Below are positions 21,469 through 32,991 of a DNA stretch of 33,276 nucleotides, piece by piece. The stretch is from NCBI GenBank assembly GCA_016926205.1, contig JAFGPB010000021.1, positions 1-33,276 on the forward strand, read 5' to 3'. A program made the translations under genes and the position numbers. Within the stretch, counting starts at the first letter, position 1. Each line of letters starts with the position of its first letter. The notes below the pieces were generated by a model. The model was not told the origin of the DNA. It saw nothing but the letters and a program-made list of their open reading frames with translations, and searched no databases. The DNA is from Bacteroidales bacterium. Its GTDB lineage: Bacteria > Bacteroidota > Bacteroidia > Bacteroidales > UBA10428.

Positions 21469-22188
21469 TTATTTTTTGTTGATGCTTCCTGCACTTGAAC
21501 TGTGCATTTCAATGATTTTCGGATCCCCCATGTAGTTGATGTCACCGGCACTGCTTGACCTGAATTTTGCTTCCCCCGTAATATGAACATTTGCATTTCC
21601 TGCACTTGAAACAGAAACATCGGCTGACTCTGCAACCAAATCATAGGCATCAAGATCACCGGCACTGCTCAGGTCAGCGTACAGGTTTTTTACCGTACCT
21701 TTCAGATAAGCATTACCTGCACTTGAAATATCGATTGCAATTTCTCCGGCTTCAAGTTCCAGTCTGAGATCACCAGCACTGCTCATATCAATATTCATTT
21801 GCTCCGTCCTGATCAGATTTTCCCCCGTAATATCACCGGCACTTGAAATGTCGATTGACTGAATTACAGGACAGGTAACATAAACAACTTTTGATTCTGC
21901 CATCCGGATGTTCTTCTCGGAATTAATGTGCAGGACCGAATTGGAAACTTCTGTAATGATCCATTCGTGCAGGTTCTGGTCAGCTTCCACAATCACTTCT
22001 GTATTTTGTCCCTGTGTAAGATAGACATCAATGCCACTGCTGACTTTAATTCCATTAAAATCAGATAGATTGCGGATTTCTTGTACAACATTTCCGTCTC
22101 CGGTAATTGAATCCGTATAGCTGACAATACAGCCACCCGGAATCATTACAAGAAACAGCAAGCTAAAAATTGTTTTGCTGGTTTTCAT
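21469..22188 (-). CDS. GIN-domain (DUF2807) lipoprotein with SSAG[DN] repeats
   Basis: A 239-residue secreted lipoprotein (signal peptide ending PGGC, Cys20) of the head-GIN/DUF2807 type, annotated in databases as a putative auto-transporter adhesin. After the opening VVQEIRNLSDFNGIKVSSGIDVYL-type segment, the central and C-terminal parts contain seven copies of [IMLVS]SSAG[DNS] spaced about 19-20 residues (57-61 bases). This is a beta-solenoid signature with one turn per repeat. The function is unknown; a cell-surface structural or adhesive role is inferred. It lies 114 bases downstream of porP on the same strand, with a possible terminator hairpin between, so it is probably a separate unit. 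Confidence 0.85.
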   Translation of the reverse strand: MKTSKTIFSLLFLVMIPGGCIVSYTDSITGDGNVVQEIRNLSDFNGIKVSSGIDVYLTQGQNTEVIVEADQNLHEWIITEVSNSVLHINSEKNIRMAESKVVYVTCPVIQSIDISSAGDITGENLIRTEQMNIDMSSAGDLRLELEAGEIAIDISSAGNAYLKGTVKNLYADLSSAGDLDAYDLVAESADVSVSSAGNANVHITGEAKFRSSSAGDINYMGDPKIIEMHSSSAGSINKK

Positions 22189-22302: not shown

Positions 22303-23340
22303 TTAATACCTGTTCAGCCATTTGTAACGGCGGGCGTTATCCCCGAATTTAACTGCGGCCATGATCTCATGAGATCCGAGCGTGCGGGCACCAATGGCAT
22401 TAAAGGTGTAGTCAAAAGCGTATCCAAAGTAGAATTTATCCACACGGACGCCTGCCATAATGATGGCTGACGATCCTTTGCCGTTGAAGGTCTCCTCAAC
22501 CAGACTGTAACTGCCTCCGGTACGGTAGGAAAGACCCACCCAGTAATTCTCCTGGAAATACAATTTTGCATTCAGATCGATCTGGGCAATGAATTTTTCC
22601 GTGGTTTTAAACAGGAAGGATGGTTCCAGAAGGAGTTCCCGGTTGATCTCAAACCTGTATCCTGCGATAATGAAATAATGCCGCATCATTCTGAATCCCG
22701 GACCGTCTTTATCGGCACCCAGTTTCAGCGGGCTCTGAAACAGCTGCATGGCCGAGATGCCCGCATACAGATGCTGATCAGTGTAATAGACCCCAAAATT
22801 TGCATCCGGTATCAATGCTGATTTTTCAGTGTTCAGCAACAGCGGGTCATCAGGATCAAGCAGACTCATCTTTTCTTCATTGATTCGAAACTGGTAGCCT
22901 GTAAGGGAAACACCGAAAGAAAGCTGTGATGCTGAAAATTCAATATGGTAACTGTATGTCCCCTGGAGTCCGGTACGGTTAAAAGCTCCGGCCATATCCG
23001 TAAACGCGTAACCGCCGTATCCGACGCGGCCGCTGCGCGACATGACCCTTCTGCGCTTTCTGATGGAGGCTGAACGGGAGATATAACTGTTTCGCAGCAA
23101 CCTGGTCTGTGCACTGATGGCATAGGTCCCGGGTGCATCTTTCATCCCGAGCCATTGCTCCCTTGCAGTCACATTGATCGCGGTATATCCCTCATGGCCT
23201 GCCACAGCTGGATTGATGAGAAATGCATTCATCATATACTGGCTGTATACAGGCAGCTGTTGTGCACCTGCCCGTAAAGGCAATATCAGCAGAAGCAATA
23301 CAGCGCACGGGACCAATATCTGCAATCTTTTGTTTTTCAT
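22303..23340 (-). CDS. PorP/SprF-family type IX secretion outer-membrane protein
   Basis: A 345-residue protein with a signal peptide (cleavage likely after AGA, about residue 26). The family signature follows directly: QLPVYSQYMMNAFLINPAVAG, where the Q-Y-M-x-N-x-x-x-I-N-P-A-x-A-G pattern is diagnostic. An alternating beta-strand body predicts an outer-membrane barrel (for example GVYYTDQHLYAG and YFGYAFDYTFNAIG). Family members such as SprF assist export or surface attachment of one specific T9SS cargo encoded next door. Here the upstream genes encode a giant adhesin-like protein and a T9SS type B protein, the same arrangement as sprB-sprF. It is the last gene of the four-gene operon, 62 bases after the CHU_C gene. 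Confidence 0.93.
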   Translation of the reverse strand: MKNKRLQILVPCAVLLLLILPLRAGAQQLPVYSQYMMNAFLINPAVAGHEGYTAINVTAREQWLGMKDAPGTYAISAQTRLLRNSYISRSASIRKRRRVMSRSGRVGYGGYAFTDMAGAFNRTGLQGTYSYHIEFSASQLSFGVSLTGYQFRINEEKMSLLDPDDPLLLNTEKSALIPDANFGVYYTDQHLYAGISAMQLFQSPLKLGADKDGPGFRMMRHYFIIAGYRFEINRELLLEPSFLFKTTEKFIAQIDLNAKLYFQENYWVGLSYRTGGSYSLVEETFNGKGSSAIIMAGVRVDKFYFGYAFDYTFNAIGARTLGSHEIMAAVKFGDNARRYKWLNRY

Positions 23341-23402: not shown

Positions 23403-24422
23403 CTATCGGATCAGATTCACGTACCCCGTAATGGGTTCAATATGATAAACATTAATATCAAGTACAAAATAATACGAGTCCATGGGCATTTCCTTGCCTG
23501 ACATAGATTCCCCGTTCCACGGATTGACAAAAACATCATTTGTTCTCCAGATGAGCCTTCCCCAACGGTCGTAGATCTCAAGCACAGCATCCGGAAACAT
23601 GTCTGTATTCGGTATGATCCATGTATCGTTCTGTCCGTTTTTGTCACCCGGTGTGATGGTGTTCGGCATATTCTCGAACAGGATATATATATCACACACT
23701 TCAAGTACAAGTGTGTCGGATCCTCTGCATCCGTTGAAATCAGTTACTTCAACCCAGATTATTTCAGGTTCCGTACGTCTGCTGTCAACCAGGATCGGAT
23801 TGATGATGTCCCCGGTCGACCATTGATAATTTGCATAATCCCCGGCATCAATAAGCCATGTATCATTCCCGCACAAGGCCGTATCACTTCCAAGATCCAC
23901 CACAGGCAACGGAAAGATCTCGAGATGGGCTGAATCATAACCTACGCAGCCGTCGGCTCCTGTAACCTGCACCCAGACCGTTCCCGGATCGCTTGTTACA
24001 AAGGTGGAATTCGTGCTGTTATCAGACCAGAGATAACTCAGAGCATAACCATAAGACGTTTCGGCATCAAATTCATAACTGTCACCTTCACATACACCGA
24101 CATCATCTCCGATATCCGCAACAGGTGCCTGAATATTCAGCTCAGCTTCCACCGGGGCACCAAAACATCCGAATTCCGATTGTTCTGTCACGGTTATCCT
24201 GTGTGTCCCCCTGTCATAGTTCCATCTGACAACGATCGTATCATTGCCCTGGCCCCAGATGATCTCACCACCTTCAACATCCCAGAAGAACACCGAGTTT
24301 TCCCAGCCCGTCACACCATAAGCCTCCGTGTTGCCGGCACAGGCATACGGCAGATCCTGCCCGTGCCCCAACACGGAGTACATGATGATGAACAGAAACA
24401 ATATGATGTTACGTCTGATCAA
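23403..24422 (-). CDS. small secreted protein with T9SS type B (CHU_C) C-terminal domain
   Basis: A 339-residue exported protein (signal peptide ending GHG-QDLP). An N-terminal PKD-like domain (FFWDVEGGEI...IVVRWNYDRGTH, about 40-95) is followed by two Ig-like segments opening with VCEGDSYEF and ALCGNDTW. The C-terminal 90 residues show the gliding-motility-type CTD: NTITPGDKNGQNDTW, LEIYDRWGRLIWRTN, NPWNG and YYFVLD...GYVNLIR. This domain directs export through the type IX system and surface delivery, probably with the PorP/SprF-like protein encoded next. Type B cargo are usually large adhesins, so this short one could be a carrier or anchor subunit for the two upstream products. That role is inference. 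Confidence 0.9.
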   Translation of the reverse strand: MIRRNIILFLFIIMYSVLGHGQDLPYACAGNTEAYGVTGWENSVFFWDVEGGEIIWGQGNDTIVVRWNYDRGTHRITVTEQSEFGCFGAPVEAELNIQAPVADIGDDVGVCEGDSYEFDAETSYGYALSYLWSDNSTNSTFVTSDPGTVWVQVTGADGCVGYDSAHLEIFPLPVVDLGSDTALCGNDTWLIDAGDYANYQWSTGDIINPILVDSRRTEPEIIWVEVTDFNGCRGSDTLVLEVCDIYILFENMPNTITPGDKNGQNDTWIIPNTDMFPDAVLEIYDRWGRLIWRTNDVFVNPWNGESMSGKEMPMDSYYFVLDINVYHIEPITGYVNLIR

Positions 24423-24498: not shown

Positions 24499-25539
24499 TT
24501 AATAATTAAAAGTATTGGGCACAGAATAGATCGGACCTGTTGAAGGTGTCGGATTCACAACAAATGATACCGTCTGATTGGTAAAATCATAATAGGAAAC
24601 ACTTCCCGCCAGATAATCCGACTTATGGGAAATATTGGATACCAAACCATTCTGGGCTGCATCACCGGTTCTGGTCACTCTGTAAGTATACCTGGTTCTG
24701 GCATCGGTGCCCCCGTCCTGTAAAATATCCAGAGCATCTGTATCAAAAGTAAATGTGAAGTCAGGGGTTGTCGTTACAAATGCAGCATTGGTCAGCGTAC
24801 CCAGATTTGATCCCTTCAGCTTTCCATCGAGCGGAAAATCCTGAATGACGGTCTCAGACTGCTCTACCGAGATCACATTCCCGTCACCGTCCAGCAGTTC
24901 AATGGTTTCAGTGATCTGAAAAGCGTATGATGCCAACGCATCCGGAACTGCTTCATTAAAGGATATTGTAACCGTCTGTGCAAGCTGGTCACCGCAAATC
25001 TGATAAGACTGGTCAGCAGCGATTTCCTGCCATGATCCGCCGGGATTTACAGAAATGGTACCGGTTGGTGGAGCGATCACGCTGACATTCATCACTGTGG
25101 GACTTGCGTCTTCACATCCGCCAAAGGATGCCGGGGCTTCTTCGGTGACATTAATCTCATAATCACCAGCCTGCAGATACTCGATTTCCACATAGTTGGC
25201 AGGTGATCCCCCTCCCAAGTTCGGAGCAGTGCCGGGATCGGTGGGTGCAGTCCAGTTCCAGCTGAATCCTGCAGTGAGTACCCAGCCGTCGCCTGCGTTA
25301 TAGTCAGGATGGTAAACCGGATCCGGAAGCGCATAGTAGCCCATTGTGGTCCCGCCTGTTTTTAAAGTCACATAATCGATGTTGGTCGGAGTTTGAGTAT
25401 CGGAATCATACTCCTCATAATCATCGTCCACGAAAGTCGTCTGACCGAATAAGGTCAAATTCAACAGCATTGCCGCAGCAACGCCAAAAACAGTTTTCAG
25501 AAAGATTCGATTTTTCATTTTGATAATCATTTGGTTCAT
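24499..25539 (-). CDS. secreted 346-residue operon partner with P-x-TGPxYxVPNxF tail
   Basis: I recognise no named family. The signal peptide (KNRIFLKTVFGVAAAMLLNLTLFG-Q) shows export. A PKD-like segment follows (GFSWNWTAP...EYLQAGDYEINVTEE, about 85-150), then a beta-rich region with a single Cys (QICGDQ) and a C-terminal tail PSTGPIYSVPNTFNY. The tail resembles that of the giant protein upstream. No type A or B T9SS domain is visible. It lies 27 bases after the giant gene and 76 before the CHU_C gene, so it is inside the operon. Three nearby ATGs (residues 1, 4 and 8) are possible starts; the third (MKNRIF) leaves the cleanest signal peptide. I infer it is a structural subunit of the same surface assembly. 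Confidence 0.8.
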   Translation of the reverse strand: MNQMIIKMKNRIFLKTVFGVAAAMLLNLTLFGQTTFVDDDYEEYDSDTQTPTNIDYVTLKTGGTTMGYYALPDPVYHPDYNAGDGWVLTAGFSWNWTAPTDPGTAPNLGGGSPANYVEIEYLQAGDYEINVTEEAPASFGGCEDASPTVMNVSVIAPPTGTISVNPGGSWQEIAADQSYQICGDQLAQTVTISFNEAVPDALASYAFQITETIELLDGDGNVISVEQSETVIQDFPLDGKLKGSNLGTLTNAAFVTTTPDFTFTFDTDALDILQDGGTDARTRYTYRVTRTGDAAQNGLVSNISHKSDYLAGSVSYYDFTNQTVSFVVNPTPSTGPIYSVPNTFNY

Positions 25540-25566
25540 AAATTAAAATTATTTGCATGTTATTGG

Positions 25567-28500
25567 TTATTCAATAAAATCATTTGGAACATAATACGAT
25601 GGACCGGTTTCCGGTCTTTTATAAACTTCAACATTCAGCTCCATGTCATCGATGGCACGACATCCACTGGCATTTGTATAATTCACGGAAACCGTCTGTA
25701 GGCCTATCGTTTCCCAGGTAACCGTTATTGAATTGTCGGCTGAGGTGCCGCCTGCCGAGATGGTCCCTCCGATGATGTTCCAGCTGTAGTCTGCCCTGCC
25801 CATTTCCGTGGTATACGTTTCGATACCTCCCGTGCAAACGATGACATTTCCGTCGATGACGGGAACAGGCCTGGTATGAACGGTCATGATGATGTCTTCA
25901 CTGTAATCCGAGCACCCCGATGCATTTGTGACCACAACGCATACAATATCCCCGTCGGTCAGGGATGTTGTGATATATGTGGATGATGAACCGTTCTGGA
26001 CGGAAATTCCATTTACATAGAAGTTGAAATTCACTCCGCCTCCAGCTGTGAAGGTCACACTTTCCCCGGAACAGATCGCATTGTCTGCGTCGCTGCCTGA
26101 CAAGGATGCTGTCGGCGATTCATATACCATAACGGAATTCGTATCCACGACACCGCCGGTAAATCCTGTCAGCCTGTACCTTCCTGCAACAGAAGCAATT
26201 ATTGTATAAGGATTTGAGGACGTAGACACAGGCTGGTCGGGTCCGCCATCGACCGAGTAAGTAAATTCATATGGACCGGCTGTACTTGTGAACATGACGA
26301 ACAGGTCGTCACCCGTACAGGCATCTTCCGTACTTAAAAAACTGGCCCTGGGTTTTAGTATGGATACCGATCCCAGTGTGTAATCATGTTCATCAATATC
26401 CATTTTTAACAGGGTTTGTGCCGTTCCGTCGTAATCATCTCCTGAAGCCAATGTGCTTTGAGCTTCCCAGCTCGAAGTCCCTGTATTGTATTCAGCAATC
26501 CTCAAGTCACTGATGCCGTTTTGTGTGGTCAGGGGTGTGACATCGCTCTGTTCATCCCAGCGAAGTTTGACATACGCCTGTTTTCCGGCAGGACCTTCGA
26601 CATGCCAGTATTCAGTCGAACTTACTGCAGTCAGCGGCAGGGTGACATCTGAAGAAGCATGACCGGTATTGAAATACTCAGCTTCCCAGGTACCCTGACT
26701 GGCGTCCAGCAAACCTGTCACCCCATAGCGTGAATCCTTCCCGGTTGGAAAATCAAAATCATCCCCTTCAAAGATGGATTTTGACATGGGACCGCTTACA
26801 TATGAACCGGATGACCCTGCTGCTGGGATCACTGTACTGCTCCATTCAAGCATTTCCAGCAGATTTGTGGACGTTGTGGTGATCACACCATCCGTGAGCA
26901 GCAGGTTACCGTTCAGTTCCAGCGGACCGTTCAGTGTCAGTCCGTATACGTTGTCAATTTCAAGGTTGTTGAAAGCATTGGAACCGGTAAAATTCCCTGC
27001 AGCTCCTCCAATTTCCTGTGATGCATACCCTTTGAAGGAAATTGTGGCTCCCGGACCGCTGCCGCTGATAAATGCTCCGGTATTCAGTCTTTCAATACCA
27101 CCGAACAGCGTTATTTTTCGGTCAAAATCTTCATTATTTAAAACAGGACCATCAATCCGAAGCAAATCACAAATTACCAGGTCCTTGTCAGGCAATGTCC
27201 GTATGCCCGTTCCTGTGAAAAAGAGATTTCTTACTGTATCAATCCGGTCGGCAATAATGGTATAGTCTGTATTTCCTCCATATTCCAGGATCCCACCAGA
27301 ACAGGACAGGAATGAGGTAAATCTTCCTGCAGGAAGGACGGGTCCTGTCAGGTAAAGTTTGCCTGTTCCTTCCAAATGACCCAGGTTGTGTCCGTATGTT
27401 GATCCGACATCCAGTGTTCCGTTGATGGTGGTCCTATATGCAAACCTCCTGTTTCCGTTGGTTGTGACTGAGTCCTGGGCCCTGATGATCACAATGAAAC
27501 CGTTCGGTCCGCCTGCCGGTGCGACCGGTGTCCAGATGTTTACATCATCCCATGCACCGTCTGAATTGCTCGTGTATACAGGTACCTCATCAGGAATGGC
27601 ATCATCGGTACCGGCTGTGTATTCTCCTCCCAGATTTGACGTACCGGCCGGAAAATCAAATGAAATAACATTCAGGGCTTCGTTTACATTATCCGTCGAG
27701 GATCCCGGTGCAGCCTTGCTCCAGTCAGTTCCCGGAGGAACGATCAGTCTTGCTGCCACGTAATCACTTTCCGGACCCAATACATCGGTTTCTGAATAAT
27801 GGAGTTGCAGGTTGCCCTCAAAATCTGAAATTCCGGTACTTTCCACTTCCCAGTAATACTGAAGGACGTTGTTGCCATCAGTCACTGCGGGATGGCGGTC
27901 ATTGATCACATTGACCCTGATTGAGCCTGCCGTAATGTTTTCGGTAATGCTGAGTTCAGCGGGTGTATATTTTCCCGTTACACCTAAGGGATAATTAAAG
28001 GAAGCGGGTCCTGTTGCGAATGACTTTCTGATACCAACATTGCTCAGAACACCGTCAGGTTTGATCATTTTTTCCGGACCGAAACCGCTGCCTGTAATGT
28101 CACTGTTGATACCCAGACTCAGCAGGTGCTGGTTGATGTCAAGCACACCCCTTGTCAGCAGGAGATCCTCGCTTAAGGAGATGCTGTTTTGCAGTCTGGC
28201 ACCGGAACTGTTGTCAAGTTCAAGTCTCCCGTAAGTGCCCGCTCCGGATAGCAGCTGGAGCACAGTTCCGTTCAGCAATATTCCTCCTGAACCTCCATCA
28301 CTGGTGTGCACAGCATGGTTCACCACATTGCCCCTGGCATTTACGTCATACGTCAAGGTTGAAAAAGTACCGCTGCTTATGGTCAGTGCATTGCTGACGG
28401 TTATATTGTTGTCAAGTGTAACGGAAGTGAAAGGATTCAGGACCAGATCGTAAAACCAGGTGCTGGTACTTCCCTCAATGGACTGTATGGTCCCGTTCAG

Positions 28501-31500
28501 CGTTGTCGTGTTGGTTCCCGGCGTATAAGTACCGTTGTTGATGAAATCTCCTTTCAGGGATACGTTGATGTTGTTTGAGGTGAAATAACTGTTTGCGTTA
28601 CTGATCGTAAGACTTCCATTCAGGTTTAAAGGATTGACCATGATTTCAAGTGTGTTAGCAGCTCCAGTTCCCTCAATGTTCAGGTTATTCAGCTCAATGT
28701 TCGCGTCCAGCTTCAAAGTCTGGACTCCGACATTCTGTGTCCCGAAATAGATTGTGCCGCCTGTAACTGAACCTGATGCCGGACGCAGGTAGAGATCGCC
28801 GTAAGTTGTTCCCCCTCCCCTCACAAGGGTGAGTGTTCCACCCGACATGGTGAATTCGCTGCCCGTGTTTTCAATTTCCAGCTTTGCGCGGGTTGCCAGC
28901 TGATTGTTGCCGTTGATCGTAACAGAGCCATCCGATTGTCTGTATTTCAATACATTACTTGTGCCGGAAGCGCTCCGCCTGATCTGTCCATTGACGATCA
29001 GAGTGCCTCCCTGAATTTCAATCTCAGAAAATCCTGAAGCTGAGTATTCTATATCATTATTATAACCGGGACCAGCAACAGGTCCAACGTATATTGATCC
29101 GTTCATCAAGGTCAGCTTGCCATCAAGAAACAGATCATTGTCATTGCTGTTGCTGTTGCCAATGTATGCGACAGCAGAAGCATTATCCAAATACAAGCCT
29201 GCTGTGGCCGGGATTGATAATGTACTTGTTGTTGTCAGGTTCAGACTGCCTGTCCGCAGGAACCTGAATGTGCCATTCTGCAATGTGAGCCAGTCATTTA
29301 CCGGTGTCGAAAACGTGATTCCCGAAACATCGACTGTAATGGTTGCAGACTGTGATGTACCTTTGTTGACCGTAACATTGCGCAGTGTTGTACTGCCGGT
29401 ACCCGTCAGAACAGTATTGTCAGATCCTGCAAAGGTTATGTCGCAGGATCCTGAATTGTTAAAATTGACTGTGCCATTGTTTGTGATGTCACCGTAAATG
29501 AACAGGGAATTGGCAGTGGTACCGGCATTCTGCACGCTGAATGCGGCTCCGGCAGAAACTGACAGCCCGCCATTTACCGTCCACTCCTGGGCACTGCCAT
29601 TTCTGAACTGCAATGTTCCGGATGTTACAGAAACATTGCCGAGTGCATTCATGGTCCTTGAGGCATTGCTGTTCAGGTATACAGATCCTGTTGCCGCCCC
29701 TTGTACCGTTATGTCACCGTAAAGTGTCATGTTCACGTCGGGCATGGTTATGGTTTGTCCTGTCCCTGGTGTCAGTAAAAGATTCCTGTAGCAATTCAGT
29801 AAATCACCTGAATTCGATGTAATCGGAATGATATATGGTCCTCCGTAGTATTCCACCGTCCCACCTTCAGGTCCCCTGAAGGCTGAAAAGTCACCTTTTG
29901 GGAAAATATTGGTTGAGATCCTGATGATCCCGCTTCCGTTGACCGGATTGGTAACCACGCCGAAATAAAGGTTGTTCCTGTCATTGCAGTTCAGTACTCC
30001 CGTTGCCTGGATCTGTAGGTTTCCGGATTCATTGTCATTGCGGTCAGCTGTAACAGTGTGACCGTTCCTTATGACAGCAGGTGTATTCCTGTCAGGCCAG
30101 TTTCCGGAATTTATATTTGTTATTGTATCAATCACCCAGGTGTTTTTATTGCGCCATGCACCGTCCTGCCTGCTGTAAAATACCTGCACGGAACCGAAAG
30201 GATTCAGGGGAGCCGGCGAATCGTCTCCTGCAGTATAATCTCCATCAATATAACCGGCGCCATCGGGCCAGTTTATTACGTTGTTGACATGATCAAGATC
30301 ATCCGTCGCACCTCTGCTCCAGGTGAAAGTCGATGGATCATATCTCGCAGGTACATAATCTTCTTCAGTTGCTCCGTTTTCTGAAGAAACATCCGATTGA
30401 TCATATATAAATGTCTGGCTCACCGTTGCCGTTCCCAGGTTGAATCCCGACGATATTTCGCGCCAGAAATAGGTCAGACTGCGTTGTTTTCCATTTGCGC
30501 TGGTCTGCATTTGTTCAGCATCCACAGGGTATACGGTCAGTGAACCATAAGATGCCGGAGTGGTGCTGAGTGTGAAGGTCATCGGGGTATACCTGATGCC
30601 TCCCGGTATAACACCAATGGGAAAAAAGAAAGTATTTGTGCTGAAAGTCTTTGTTATTCCTTTGTCACCTATGTCACCGGTGGTCGCTATAAAACGGGTG
30701 GCGGAAAAAGATCCTGAAAGACTTGCTCCGGTACCCAGATTCAGGTTATGGATCCCAATATTCAGGATCCGTTCACTCTGCAAAGTCAGAATTCCTTGAA
30801 CAGAAATGTTTGCATCCAGTGAAACTGAAGCCGAACCTGCAACACCATTTGTATTGTTCAGACTCAGGTTCTGGAAGATACCGCTCCCGTCACCACCAAT
30901 TGTCTGCACTCCGGTCCCTGACAGGATGATCAGTCCGGTTCCCTCATGAATCCCTGAATTGTTGACATTACCTGAGACATTGATCGTATGTCCTCCATCA
31001 TTGTAAGTACCGGCATTCAGGTTAAAGTTCCCGCGTACCGGCAGGGTATTGGGAATTGTCCTGAAAAAAACAAGCGATCCTTCAGGTTTATCGATGACCA
31101 GGTTGCTGAAACCTGAAATAACGGTTCCTTCATTTGTATAAGTATGGTTACCACCGCCAATGAAACCGGTCGTATTGTTCCCTGGAACATATACGGCACC
31201 GGATCCGAGGGTAAAATTGCCTCCTACTGTCAGGTTATTGTTGTCTGCGTCGAGCGTCCTTTCTTCAAGTATGAAATCATTCAAGACAGTCAGATCATGC
31301 TGCAGAATGTAATCCAGATTGGACCCGGATGCAGAAGTGTCTTTTAATGTCAGGTTATAGAATGGTACCGTGGAATAGATCTCGAAACTGGTCTGGTCAT
31401 CTGCATTGCTGGGACGCACTACGGTGACCGTACCCCCGGTGACGCTGTAATTTGATGCACCCACACGAATATCGATGCCATTCGTGGCGGTCGTGTTGAC

Positions 31501-32991
31501 CCCTGCAATATAGATGTTCCCACCTGACATGTTGAAAACTAAGTCTTCAGCCGGGAGGGCAAATACGGCGGACTGGTTCCTGGAATCGGAAAAACCGGTT
31601 ATTCTGAGTGAGCCGCCGGTCTGGTGATAGGTTACCCTTCCGTTGACATCGGCCTGTTTGACCTGGGTGGTGTAAACGGTGCCTCCTTCGATCAGTATGT
31701 AACCAGGTTGCGCCATGTTGCCGGAATAGGTAATACCTCCCGTATTGTTCCTGTTCGTAAAGGTTCCGGCAGAAACGCGTAACAAACCGTTTACTGTAAT
31801 GCCCCTCCAACCGCCTCCGTCATCTGATGTTGCAACATGAGCACCATCGATCCACAATCCTGCCGTCCCCGGGATATGGAACTCCCGGATATCCCCTGAT
31901 CCTGTATCTTCACCCAGAGCGGGAATATCCACTGCACTGCGGAGCTTCAATGTCCCGTTTTGCAAAACCAATGCCAGCGTACTCCAGTCGCCGCTGGTTC
32001 CGGAGACCGGACCGAAGAGGCGAAAATTGGCAGCATCAGTCGATGTTACCGTTAATACATAGGTGCGGTCCGTTCCCTTATCCAGGAAGAGACGGTAAAA
32101 ATCCGTCGTTCCCGCACAATGCAGGATGTTGTCTGATGCTCCTGCAAAGGTGAAGTTCGCTGCTCCGTTTGTGGCAGCAGTATACTGGGACGAGTTACTC
32201 AGATCGATGGTTCCATAATTCATGAGATCACCATCCAGACTGATGTTGTGGATCGCATTAAAATTACCAGTATTGAGTATCCCGCCTGACGAAACAGTGA
32301 AATTGCCGGACAGGGAAATTGTACGTACAGTCGTGTTGTTGCCTATTCTTGCGGTTATGGTGCCCGTCCCCTGGGTTCTTGAAATATGAAAATCTCCGTG
32401 TACTGTGAGGTTACTTCCTATTGTGACCGTATGGCTGCTGGCAGTGTTATCAGTCTTCAGTATTTTGAGATTGTTGTATGTAGCCTGAGTCAGCGTTCCT
32501 GTGAAATTGCAGTATTCCGTGGTACCGCCTCCGGGCATGACAAATGTGTTTGCAGTAACCAACGGAAAGCTGGCCGAGGTGAGTCTCAGGGTTCCCTGGC
32601 CTTCCAGTGCCTGAACCGTATTGGTAAACTGATATGTGCTCAGGGAAAGTACACCACCGCTGTTGATAACAATGGTCAGACCGGTTGCCGTTACGTCAGA
32701 TATAAGCGTTACAGTGCGTGAAGACAATATGTAAACCGAATCGCCTGACGCAGGCACCTGTGAACCTATGAGCGTCGTCCCCCCCGGATCAGTAGTCCAG
32801 GTATCTGCATTGTCCCAGTTGCCTGACTGGTATGAATACAATGTAATTGCCTGCAGGCTTGAGAAAAAAGTTGTTATTACAAGAATGGCAAGGATCAAGA
32901 AATTTCTTGAAAAGAGCAATTTTTTCAAGAATATATTGAATATGCCAGGGCAACCAACGGGAGTGTTTATATTGTCTGATTTCTTTCGCAA
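25567..32991 (-). CDS. giant secreted beta-helix adhesin-like protein, three repeated modules
   Basis: About 2474 residues, Asn/Thr/Ser/Gly-rich. The signal peptide is KKLLFSRNFLILAILV...SSLQA. Three related modules follow, each starting with a Y-x-S-x-x-[DS]G-x-W-x(5)-W header: YSYQSGNW (about 52), FYSRQDGAW (about 938) and YTSNSDGAW (about 1806). Each continues into a long parallel beta-helix-like stretch of N/G-rich turns. Each closes with a beta-sandwich-like unit marked F-x-x-P-x-G (FFFPIG about 791, FNYPLG about 1666, FDFPTG about 2079). From about 2216 there are Ig/PKD-like domains and the tail PETGPSYYVPNDFIE. No type A or B T9SS domain is seen, although PorP/SprF and CHU_C genes follow. 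The start is odd: no in-frame ATG before about residue 150, so TTG (32991 or 32928) is likely. Surface adhesion is inferred. Confidence 0.85.
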   Translation of the reverse strand: MRKKSDNINTPVGCPGIFNIFLKKLLFSRNFLILAILVITTFFSSLQAITLYSYQSGNWDNADTWTTDPGGTTLIGSQVPASGDSVYILSSRTVTLISDVTATGLTIVINSGGVLSLSTYQFTNTVQALEGQGTLRLTSASFPLVTANTFVMPGGGTTEYCNFTGTLTQATYNNLKILKTDNTASSHTVTIGSNLTVHGDFHISRTQGTGTITARIGNNTTVRTISLSGNFTVSSGGILNTGNFNAIHNISLDGDLMNYGTIDLSNSSQYTAATNGAANFTFAGASDNILHCAGTTDFYRLFLDKGTDRTYVLTVTSTDAANFRLFGPVSGTSGDWSTLALVLQNGTLKLRSAVDIPALGEDTGSGDIREFHIPGTAGLWIDGAHVATSDDGGGWRGITVNGLLRVSAGTFTNRNNTGGITYSGNMAQPGYILIEGGTVYTTQVKQADVNGRVTYHQTGGSLRITGFSDSRNQSAVFALPAEDLVFNMSGGNIYIAGVNTTATNGIDIRVGASNYSVTGGTVTVVRPSNADDQTSFEIYSTVPFYNLTLKDTSASGSNLDYILQHDLTVLNDFILEERTLDADNNNLTVGGNFTLGSGAVYVPGNNTTGFIGGGNHTYTNEGTVISGFSNLVIDKPEGSLVFFRTIPNTLPVRGNFNLNAGTYNDGGHTINVSGNVNNSGIHEGTGLIILSGTGVQTIGGDGSGIFQNLSLNNTNGVAGSASVSLDANISVQGILTLQSERILNIGIHNLNLGTGASLSGSFSATRFIATTGDIGDKGITKTFSTNTFFFPIGVIPGGIRYTPMTFTLSTTPASYGSLTVYPVDAEQMQTSANGKQRSLTYFWREISSGFNLGTATVSQTFIYDQSDVSSENGATEEDYVPARYDPSTFTWSRGATDDLDHVNNVINWPDGAGYIDGDYTAGDDSPAPLNPFGSVQVFYSRQDGAWRNKNTWVIDTITNINSGNWPDRNTPAVIRNGHTVTADRNDNESGNLQIQATGVLNCNDRNNLYFGVVTNPVNGSGIIRISTNIFPKGDFSAFRGPEGGTVEYYGGPYIIPITSNSGDLLNCYRNLLLTPGTGQTITMPDVNMTLYGDITVQGAATGSVYLNSNASRTMNALGNVSVTSGTLQFRNGSAQEWTVNGGLSVSAGAAFSVQNAGTTANSLFIYGDITNNGTVNFNNSGSCDITFAGSDNTVLTGTGSTTLRNVTVNKGTSQSATITVDVSGITFSTPVNDWLTLQNGTFRFLRTGSLNLTTTSTLSIPATAGLYLDNASAVAYIGNSNSNDNDLFLDGKLTLMNGSIYVGPVAGPGYNNDIEYSASGFSEIEIQGGTLIVNGQIRRSASGTSNVLKYRQSDGSVTINGNNQLATRAKLEIENTGSEFTMSGGTLTLVRGGGTTYGDLYLRPASGSVTGGTIYFGTQNVGVQTLKLDANIELNNLNIEGTGAANTLEIMVNPLNLNGSLTISNANSYFTSNNINVSLKGDFINNGTYTPGTNTTTLNGTIQSIEGSTSTWFYDLVLNPFTSVTLDNNITVSNALTISSGTFSTLTYDVNARGNVVNHAVHTSDGGSGGILLNGTVLQLLSGAGTYGRLELDNSSGARLQNSISLSEDLLLTRGVLDINQHLLSLGINSDITGSGFGPEKMIKPDGVLSNVGIRKSFATGPASFNYPLGVTGKYTPAELSITENITAGSIRVNVINDRHPAVTDGNNVLQYYWEVESTGISDFEGNLQLHYSETDVLGPESDYVAARLIVPPGTDWSKAAPGSSTDNVNEALNVISFDFPAGTSNLGGEYTAGTDDAIPDEVPVYTSNSDGAWDDVNIWTPVAPAGGPNGFIVIIRAQDSVTTNGNRRFAYRTTINGTLDVGSTYGHNLGHLEGTGKLYLTGPVLPAGRFTSFLSCSGGILEYGGNTDYTIIADRIDTVRNLFFTGTGIRTLPDKDLVICDLLRIDGPVLNNEDFDRKITLFGGIERLNTGAFISGSGPGATISFKGYASQEIGGAAGNFTGSNAFNNLEIDNVYGLTLNGPLELNGNLLLTDGVITTTSTNLLEMLEWSSTVIPAAGSSGSYVSGPMSKSIFEGDDFDFPTGKDSRYGVTGLLDASQGTWEAEYFNTGHASSDVTLPLTAVSSTEYWHVEGPAGKQAYVKLRWDEQSDVTPLTTQNGISDLRIAEYNTGTSSWEAQSTLASGDDYDGTAQTLLKMDIDEHDYTLGSVSILKPRASFLSTEDACTGDDLFVMFTSTAGPYEFTYSVDGGPDQPVSTSSNPYTIIASVAGRYRLTGFTGGVVDTNSVMVYESPTASLSGSDADNAICSGESVTFTAGGGVNFNFYVNGISVQNGSSSTYITTSLTDGDIVCVVVTNASGCSDYSEDIIMTVHTRPVPVIDGNVIVCTGGIETYTTEMGRADYSWNIIGGTISAGGTSADNSITVTWETIGLQTVSVNYTNASGCRAIDDMELNVEVYKRPETGPSYYVPNDFIE

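Follow-up and report, generated by a model that had tools for sequence, protein, structure and literature searches.

A short C-terminal tail private to a CHU_C-PorP surface module of Bacteroidales: a proposed docking peptide for giant exported proteins

Introduction

The closest described relatives of the locus reported here are pairs of a type IX secretion system (T9SS) type B protein and its cognate PorP/SprF protein, such as PG1035-PorP, SprB-SprF and Fjoh_3952-Fjoh_3951. For PG1035-PorP and SprB-SprF, both export and anchoring to PorP have been shown (PMC9143113; PMC12618676), and the published type B shuttles are produced in stoichiometric amounts and are not recycled (PMC12618676). In the case of SprF, a Cys-X-Cys tail makes the connection to GldK and the gliding track (PMC12635249).

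The locus analysed here lies in a 33,276-nucleotide stretch of DNA from a Bacteroidales bacterium (the window). By sequence and gene order, its CHU_C and PorP/SprF genes are members of the type B systems and supply the anchor. Compared with the described pairs, the module adds proteins without a C-terminal domain (CTD) that have a short tail in common, a feature not described in the T9SS literature examined. Bacteroidota commonly encode giant adhesin-like proteins in which no secretion signal can be recognised, and how these are exported and anchored has, to our knowledge, not been explained. With the tail, such giants can be found by a short profile and assigned to a defined surface module by a simple sequence rule.

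Results

Two adjacent proteins with unrelated bodies end in the same tail

On the (-) strand, the window encodes a giant exported protein of 2474 aa (25567..32991) whose body is G8-like, repetitive and beta-rich, with G8 as the only Pfam/NCBIfam match, and whose last domain is PKD/Ig-like. Next to it lies the gene for a 346-aa protein, here called mid (24499..25539, (-) strand), which consists of a signal peptide with the likely start at MKNRIFLK, two Ig-like domains (D1 and D2) and the tail; none of the mid proteins tested, including this one, gave a Pfam/NCBIfam match above the cut-off. The initial annotation had placed both genes in an operon with a type B CTD gene and a PorP/SprF-like gene, and these are indeed the genes that come next after mid. 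The first encodes a CHU_C protein of 339 aa (23403..24422, (-) strand) with an N-terminal Ig-like domain (D1), two more Ig domains and a T9SS type B CTD (PF13585/TIGR04131, E=8e-17 and 4e-13); the second encodes a PorP/SprF-family outer-membrane barrel (22303..23340, (-) strand; PF11751, E=2.5e-71; TIGR03519, E=6e-75). All genes are co-directional with gaps of 27-76 bp, so that the operon rests on layout and not on expression data. Similarly, export is supported by Sec-like signal-peptide N-termini, which were judged by eye only. SprA, the T9SS translocon, is encoded in the window genome. A co-directional DUF2807 (head GIN domain) gene at 21469-22188 of the window ((-) strand), 114 bp downstream of the PorP gene, apparently lies outside the conserved module.

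The tail of the giant, PETGPSYYVPNDFIE, is encoded at 25570..25614 plus stop ((-) strand) and matches the tail profile with E=1.4e-9. That of mid, PSTGPIYSVPNTFNY, is encoded at 24502..24546 plus stop ((-) strand), and its family consensus reads P-x-T-G-P-[IV]-Y-H-I-x-N-x-[WF]. As noticed in the initial annotation, the two tails are identical at nine of 15 positions (P, T, G, P, Y, V, P, N and F) and both stop two residues past the F; outside the tail the proteins differ, their bodies being unrelated. In the 2.24-Mb window assembly the motif occurs at two sites only, in the giant and in mid, and together with the better conservation of the tail core (see below) this places the shared tail beyond chance.

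Like the T9SS signals of types A, B and C, the tail is C-terminal and sits on exported Bacteroidota proteins without another export signal. Unlike these signals, it comprises only ~12 residues, has no fold of its own, matches no model and is limited to genomes with the mid module. The Pfam and NCBIfam models agree with the earlier view that the giant and mid lack a classical CTD: neither protein matched type A (PF18962/TIGR04183) or type B (PF13585/TIGR04131, a C-terminal domain of ~85 residues). No Pfam/NCBIfam match was obtained for type C (~100 residues, cl41395) either, with cl41395 itself outside the scan; its length does not fit. A known CTD type was rejected for the tail, for type C only by length and within the models scanned. 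We found no published description of the tail, the T9SS literature examined giving CTD types A, B and C only, and a text search for the string TGPIYH (subscription papers and preprints outside its scope) had no literature match.

Conservation of mid is highest in the tail core

Searching with the body of the mid protein revealed homologues in 21 of the 295 genomes of the order, and every complete protein of this set ends in the tail. In the 21-row alignment of these homologues (A1), the tail core reaches 3.6 bits per column compared to 1.7-2.2 for the rest of mid, which makes it the best conserved part of the protein, and P332, T334 and G335 are invariant. As the homologues were found by whole-protein similarity, this conservation is unbiased. 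An 8-row alignment (A2) had the tail as its only pattern, and the conservation derived from it (A4) is biased, hence the use of A1.

The gene order mid - CHU_C - PorP is found in the loci of the 21 genomes wherever the contig is long enough. On a larger scale, a single nine-residue pattern, P[VTN]TGP[IV]Y[HT]I, was scanned over 84,980 genomes and matched 49 stretches, 37 of them encoding a relative of mid. Nearly all are from Bacteroidales MAGs; the exceptions are a contig with the label Acidobacteriota and an isolate, Perlabentimonas gracilis M08_MB. CHU_C and PorP/SprF genes lie downstream of mid in all 37 named loci. The core genes mid, CHU_C and PorP/SprF are as a rule present as one set per genome, while the number of giants per genome varies from 0 to 5.

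Several loci deviate from the window in detail. The Acidobacteriota-labelled contig (L120) carries a complete module of the Bacteroidales type, perhaps through a binning error. At four loci (L085, L103, L114, L121), two PorP/SprF genes follow CHU_C, the second product ending in RRYRWLERY and not in LNRY. Tandem mid paralogues are present at L082, L083 and L182-L185, where the second tail has diverged to T-x-P-I-x-H-I-x-N (e.g. TQPIKHIQN, TSPIQHLKN); these differing tails suggest ordered docking specificities. A TPR-repeat protein adjoins the module at L069, L070, L071, L076, L077 and L081 (Pfam-confirmed for L070, L071 and L077), often together with a further uncharacterised protein of ~285 aa; both are absent from the window.

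The tail is confined to genomes with the module

A tail profile of 25 positions (A3) was scanned on the 295 genomes of the order, on 297 genomes across the phylum and on the module-bearing genomes. In the order, 28 of the 295 genomes matched, ~26 of them convincingly, and mid is present in all 26 convincing genomes, 25 times by the mid profile and once as a divergent mid (G432). Apart from these 25, the mid profile matched only one giant with an Ig-like match (G659). A giant tail without mid in the same genome was not found in the 295 genomes, and the 297 genomes across the phylum gave no convincing tail match outside the window genome. CHU_C is encoded in 277 of the 295 genomes and the tail in only ~26, so the tail is not a general T9SS signal. 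It occurs only at C-termini and only in genomes with mid, CHU_C and PorP, as expected of a component of this module, and is private to it.

Some candidates were discarded. Tail matches in G481, a genome of the order, and in G193 turned out to be chance on inspection (L186, L188), and a match in a 21-aa frame (G568) was taken as chance. In a phylum-wide DNA pattern search, the majority of matches beyond the window had the sequence TGPG-Y-x-[IVM]-P-N, which differs from the tail, is apparently conserved and provides no evidence of the tail. Many Bacteroidota that do not belong to the class of the window contain TGPG-Y-P-I-P-N (L016-L039; family f25 and others), usually a single time per genome; it is probably part of an unrelated conserved protein.

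Within 21 mid-positive genomes, the tail profile retrieved mids and giants, the latter of up to ~5,100 aa and often far from the operon. Where the operon has no giant, tailed giants of ~500-5,000 aa were found elsewhere in the genome. The distance to the stop codon was 0-5 residues in 36/36 inspected hits (E down to ~0.09). When 615 proteins were searched with a regular expression, 84 matches were terminal and 3 internal, and the reversed-motif control matched 3 times. The prediction that profile hits would be C-terminal only was thus fulfilled. The accompanying prediction, clustering next to CHU_C and porP, applies to the mid-type hits (37/37) but not to many of the tailed giants, which lie elsewhere in the genome.

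Tails of mid and giants vary together

The identity between mid and giant tails is 53% within taxonomic families and 36% between them (block permutation, p ~0.0002). The permutation treats families only as blocks, and the similarity within families is partly phylogenetic. Family variants are ...GNNxAK in f147, TGExYHVKN in f136 and HIxNxW in f151. Such likeness of mid and giant tails within a family is expected if one partner reads both. Between the P and the Y, Q, P, S or A predominates in giants, as opposed to I or V in mids, which could reflect slightly different binding sites. A Mantel-type comparison of tail distances with those of mid D1/D2, CHU_C D1-D3/CTD and PorP resulted in correlations of 0.09-0.40 and did not point to a clear receptor. 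CHU_C D1 is not more conserved than D3 or the CTD, so D1 is not marked as the binding site in this way.

AlphaFold2 predicts two Ig-like domains for mid; behind the last D2 strand (323-329), the tail continues as an extended segment (pLDDT ~87, then 67). Foldseek searches with this model returned generic Ig/pilin matches only (TM ~0.2). D1 of mid is homologous to D1 of CHU_C (hhalign 91%). As the last domain of several giants also matches D1, this domain is not unique to the proposed acceptors. The last domains of the giants are PKD/Ig_7-like and unrelated to D2 of mid despite the matching tails. For the Ig repeats of the CHU_C protein, the closest solved structures are those of the Aureispira grappling-hook protein GhpA; unlike CHU_C, GhpA is one very long protein, and only the repeat fold is common to both (TM ~0.3).

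Discussion

Our comparisons establish that the core is constant and the giants are variable, that the C-terminal tail is private to this system and that tail variants are concerted. The ending is common to otherwise unrelated large exported proteins of some Bacteroidales and always found in genomes that encode the anchor; we therefore read it as a plug, probably to one common anchor, with which the proteins perhaps also exit from the cell. The initial annotation had considered sorting, cleavage, docking or polymerisation as functions. Docking fits best, and a canonical sortase signal or general T9SS sorting is unlikely. Specifically, we propose, with a probability of about 0.55, that the tail is a docking peptide that ties the variable giants and the mid linker to one CHU_C-PorP base.

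According to this model, the type B CTD would direct the CHU_C protein out of the cell through the T9SS, and PorP would keep it anchored, as inferred by analogy with the described pairs. Mid would dock by its tail onto the CHU_C-PorP base and the giants by theirs onto mid or the base, two inferred steps for which there are no binding data. The predicted result is a surface appendage with a base, a linker and an exchangeable tip. As receptors we consider the N-terminal Ig-like domains of mid and CHU_C most plausible, although this has not been demonstrated. Many tailed proteins on one scaffold would resemble dockerin-cohesin systems, and a terminal strand could complement a neighbour as in donor-strand pili; in contrast to both, there is no sequence match to those families and binding of the tail is undemonstrated. 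The window PorP, which ends in DNARRYKWLNRY (RRYKWLNRY), has no Cys-X-Cys tail of the kind by which SprF is tied to the gliding track, so that a gliding adhesin is less likely than a static appendage.

Giants without a CTD may reach the outside within this complex, and a role of the tail in secretion is not excluded. An extended claim, which we advance only tentatively, is that this C-terminal peptide of ~12 residues constitutes an undescribed export-and-docking code in Bacteroidota, by which several giants that lack known T9SS signals use a single type B base and a single PorP shuttle in common and piggyback on CHU_C.

As the main rival to docking, the tail could itself act as a new short T9SS export signal that is recognised by the PorP/SprF shuttle or the translocon and takes CTD-less proteins across the outer membrane. 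The tailed proteins have signal peptides and no CTD and must leave by some route, their tail occupies the position of a CTD, and PorP is always in the module, at L085, L103, L114 and L121 even twice. Known CTDs, however, are folded domains of ~80-100 residues, secretion by type B requires >200 residues (PMC10202324), and the far wider distribution of CHU_C than of the tail argues against such a signal. In addition, CHU_C, mid and several giants would all depend on a single PorP; given stoichiometric, unrecycled shuttles, docking to CHU_C is favoured over several tailed proteins each using that PorP. We regard the export signal as doubtful. If the tail did carry proteins through the T9SS, the known signal types would have to make room for a short, non-domain signal or for the co-export of complexes. 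Dependence of export and of attachment on the tail can be separated experimentally.

Homophilic or head-to-tail polymerisation, in which the tail inserts into another copy of mid (or of a giant) and CHU_C stops the filament, appears unlikely to us. Mid does have both a tail and D1, and the tandem mids with different tails (L082, L083, L182-L185) look as if made for ordered links, but direct evidence is missing, and a hub suits better the usual single mid per genome next to several giants with the same tail.

Even less support remains for covalent processing, i.e. a sortase-like transpeptidase that cuts the P-x-T-G core and joins the protein to a partner. Invariant P, T and G and giant tails of the form [ILR]PETG resemble LPXTG signals, and large surface proteins with a C-terminal P-x-T-G core and a base-shaft-tip logic are also known from Gram-positive sortase pili. 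The tail system differs from these in having no sortase, no membrane-spanning segment and no basic end: the proteins stop 8-12 residues after TG without a hydrophobic segment, and conservation continues past the G (P, Y, H, I, N), unlike in sortase signals. Sortase PF04203 was found in 0/22 tail-bearing genomes with positive controls, and a canonical sortase signal was rejected on this basis; processing by a non-homologous enzyme, for instance PorU, remains possible. That the motif is merely the end of a common Ig/PKD domain is hardly tenable: such domains typically show the preceding strand and P-x-P, and giants do end PKD/Ig_7-like, but the internal recurrence named beforehand as the refuting outcome was looked for and did not appear, mid D2 and the last domains of the giants are unrelated though their tails match, and tail variants track the genome and not the domain.

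The docking model predicts a testable architecture of one base and many tips in the cultured Perlabentimonas gracilis. Strain M08_MB (L105, G686:C20) has the module and, elsewhere in the genome, two tailed proteins in frames of ~3272 and 524 aa with the tails PETGPQYHIPNTHGM and PETGPQYHIPNTYGE, and is a possible experimental host.
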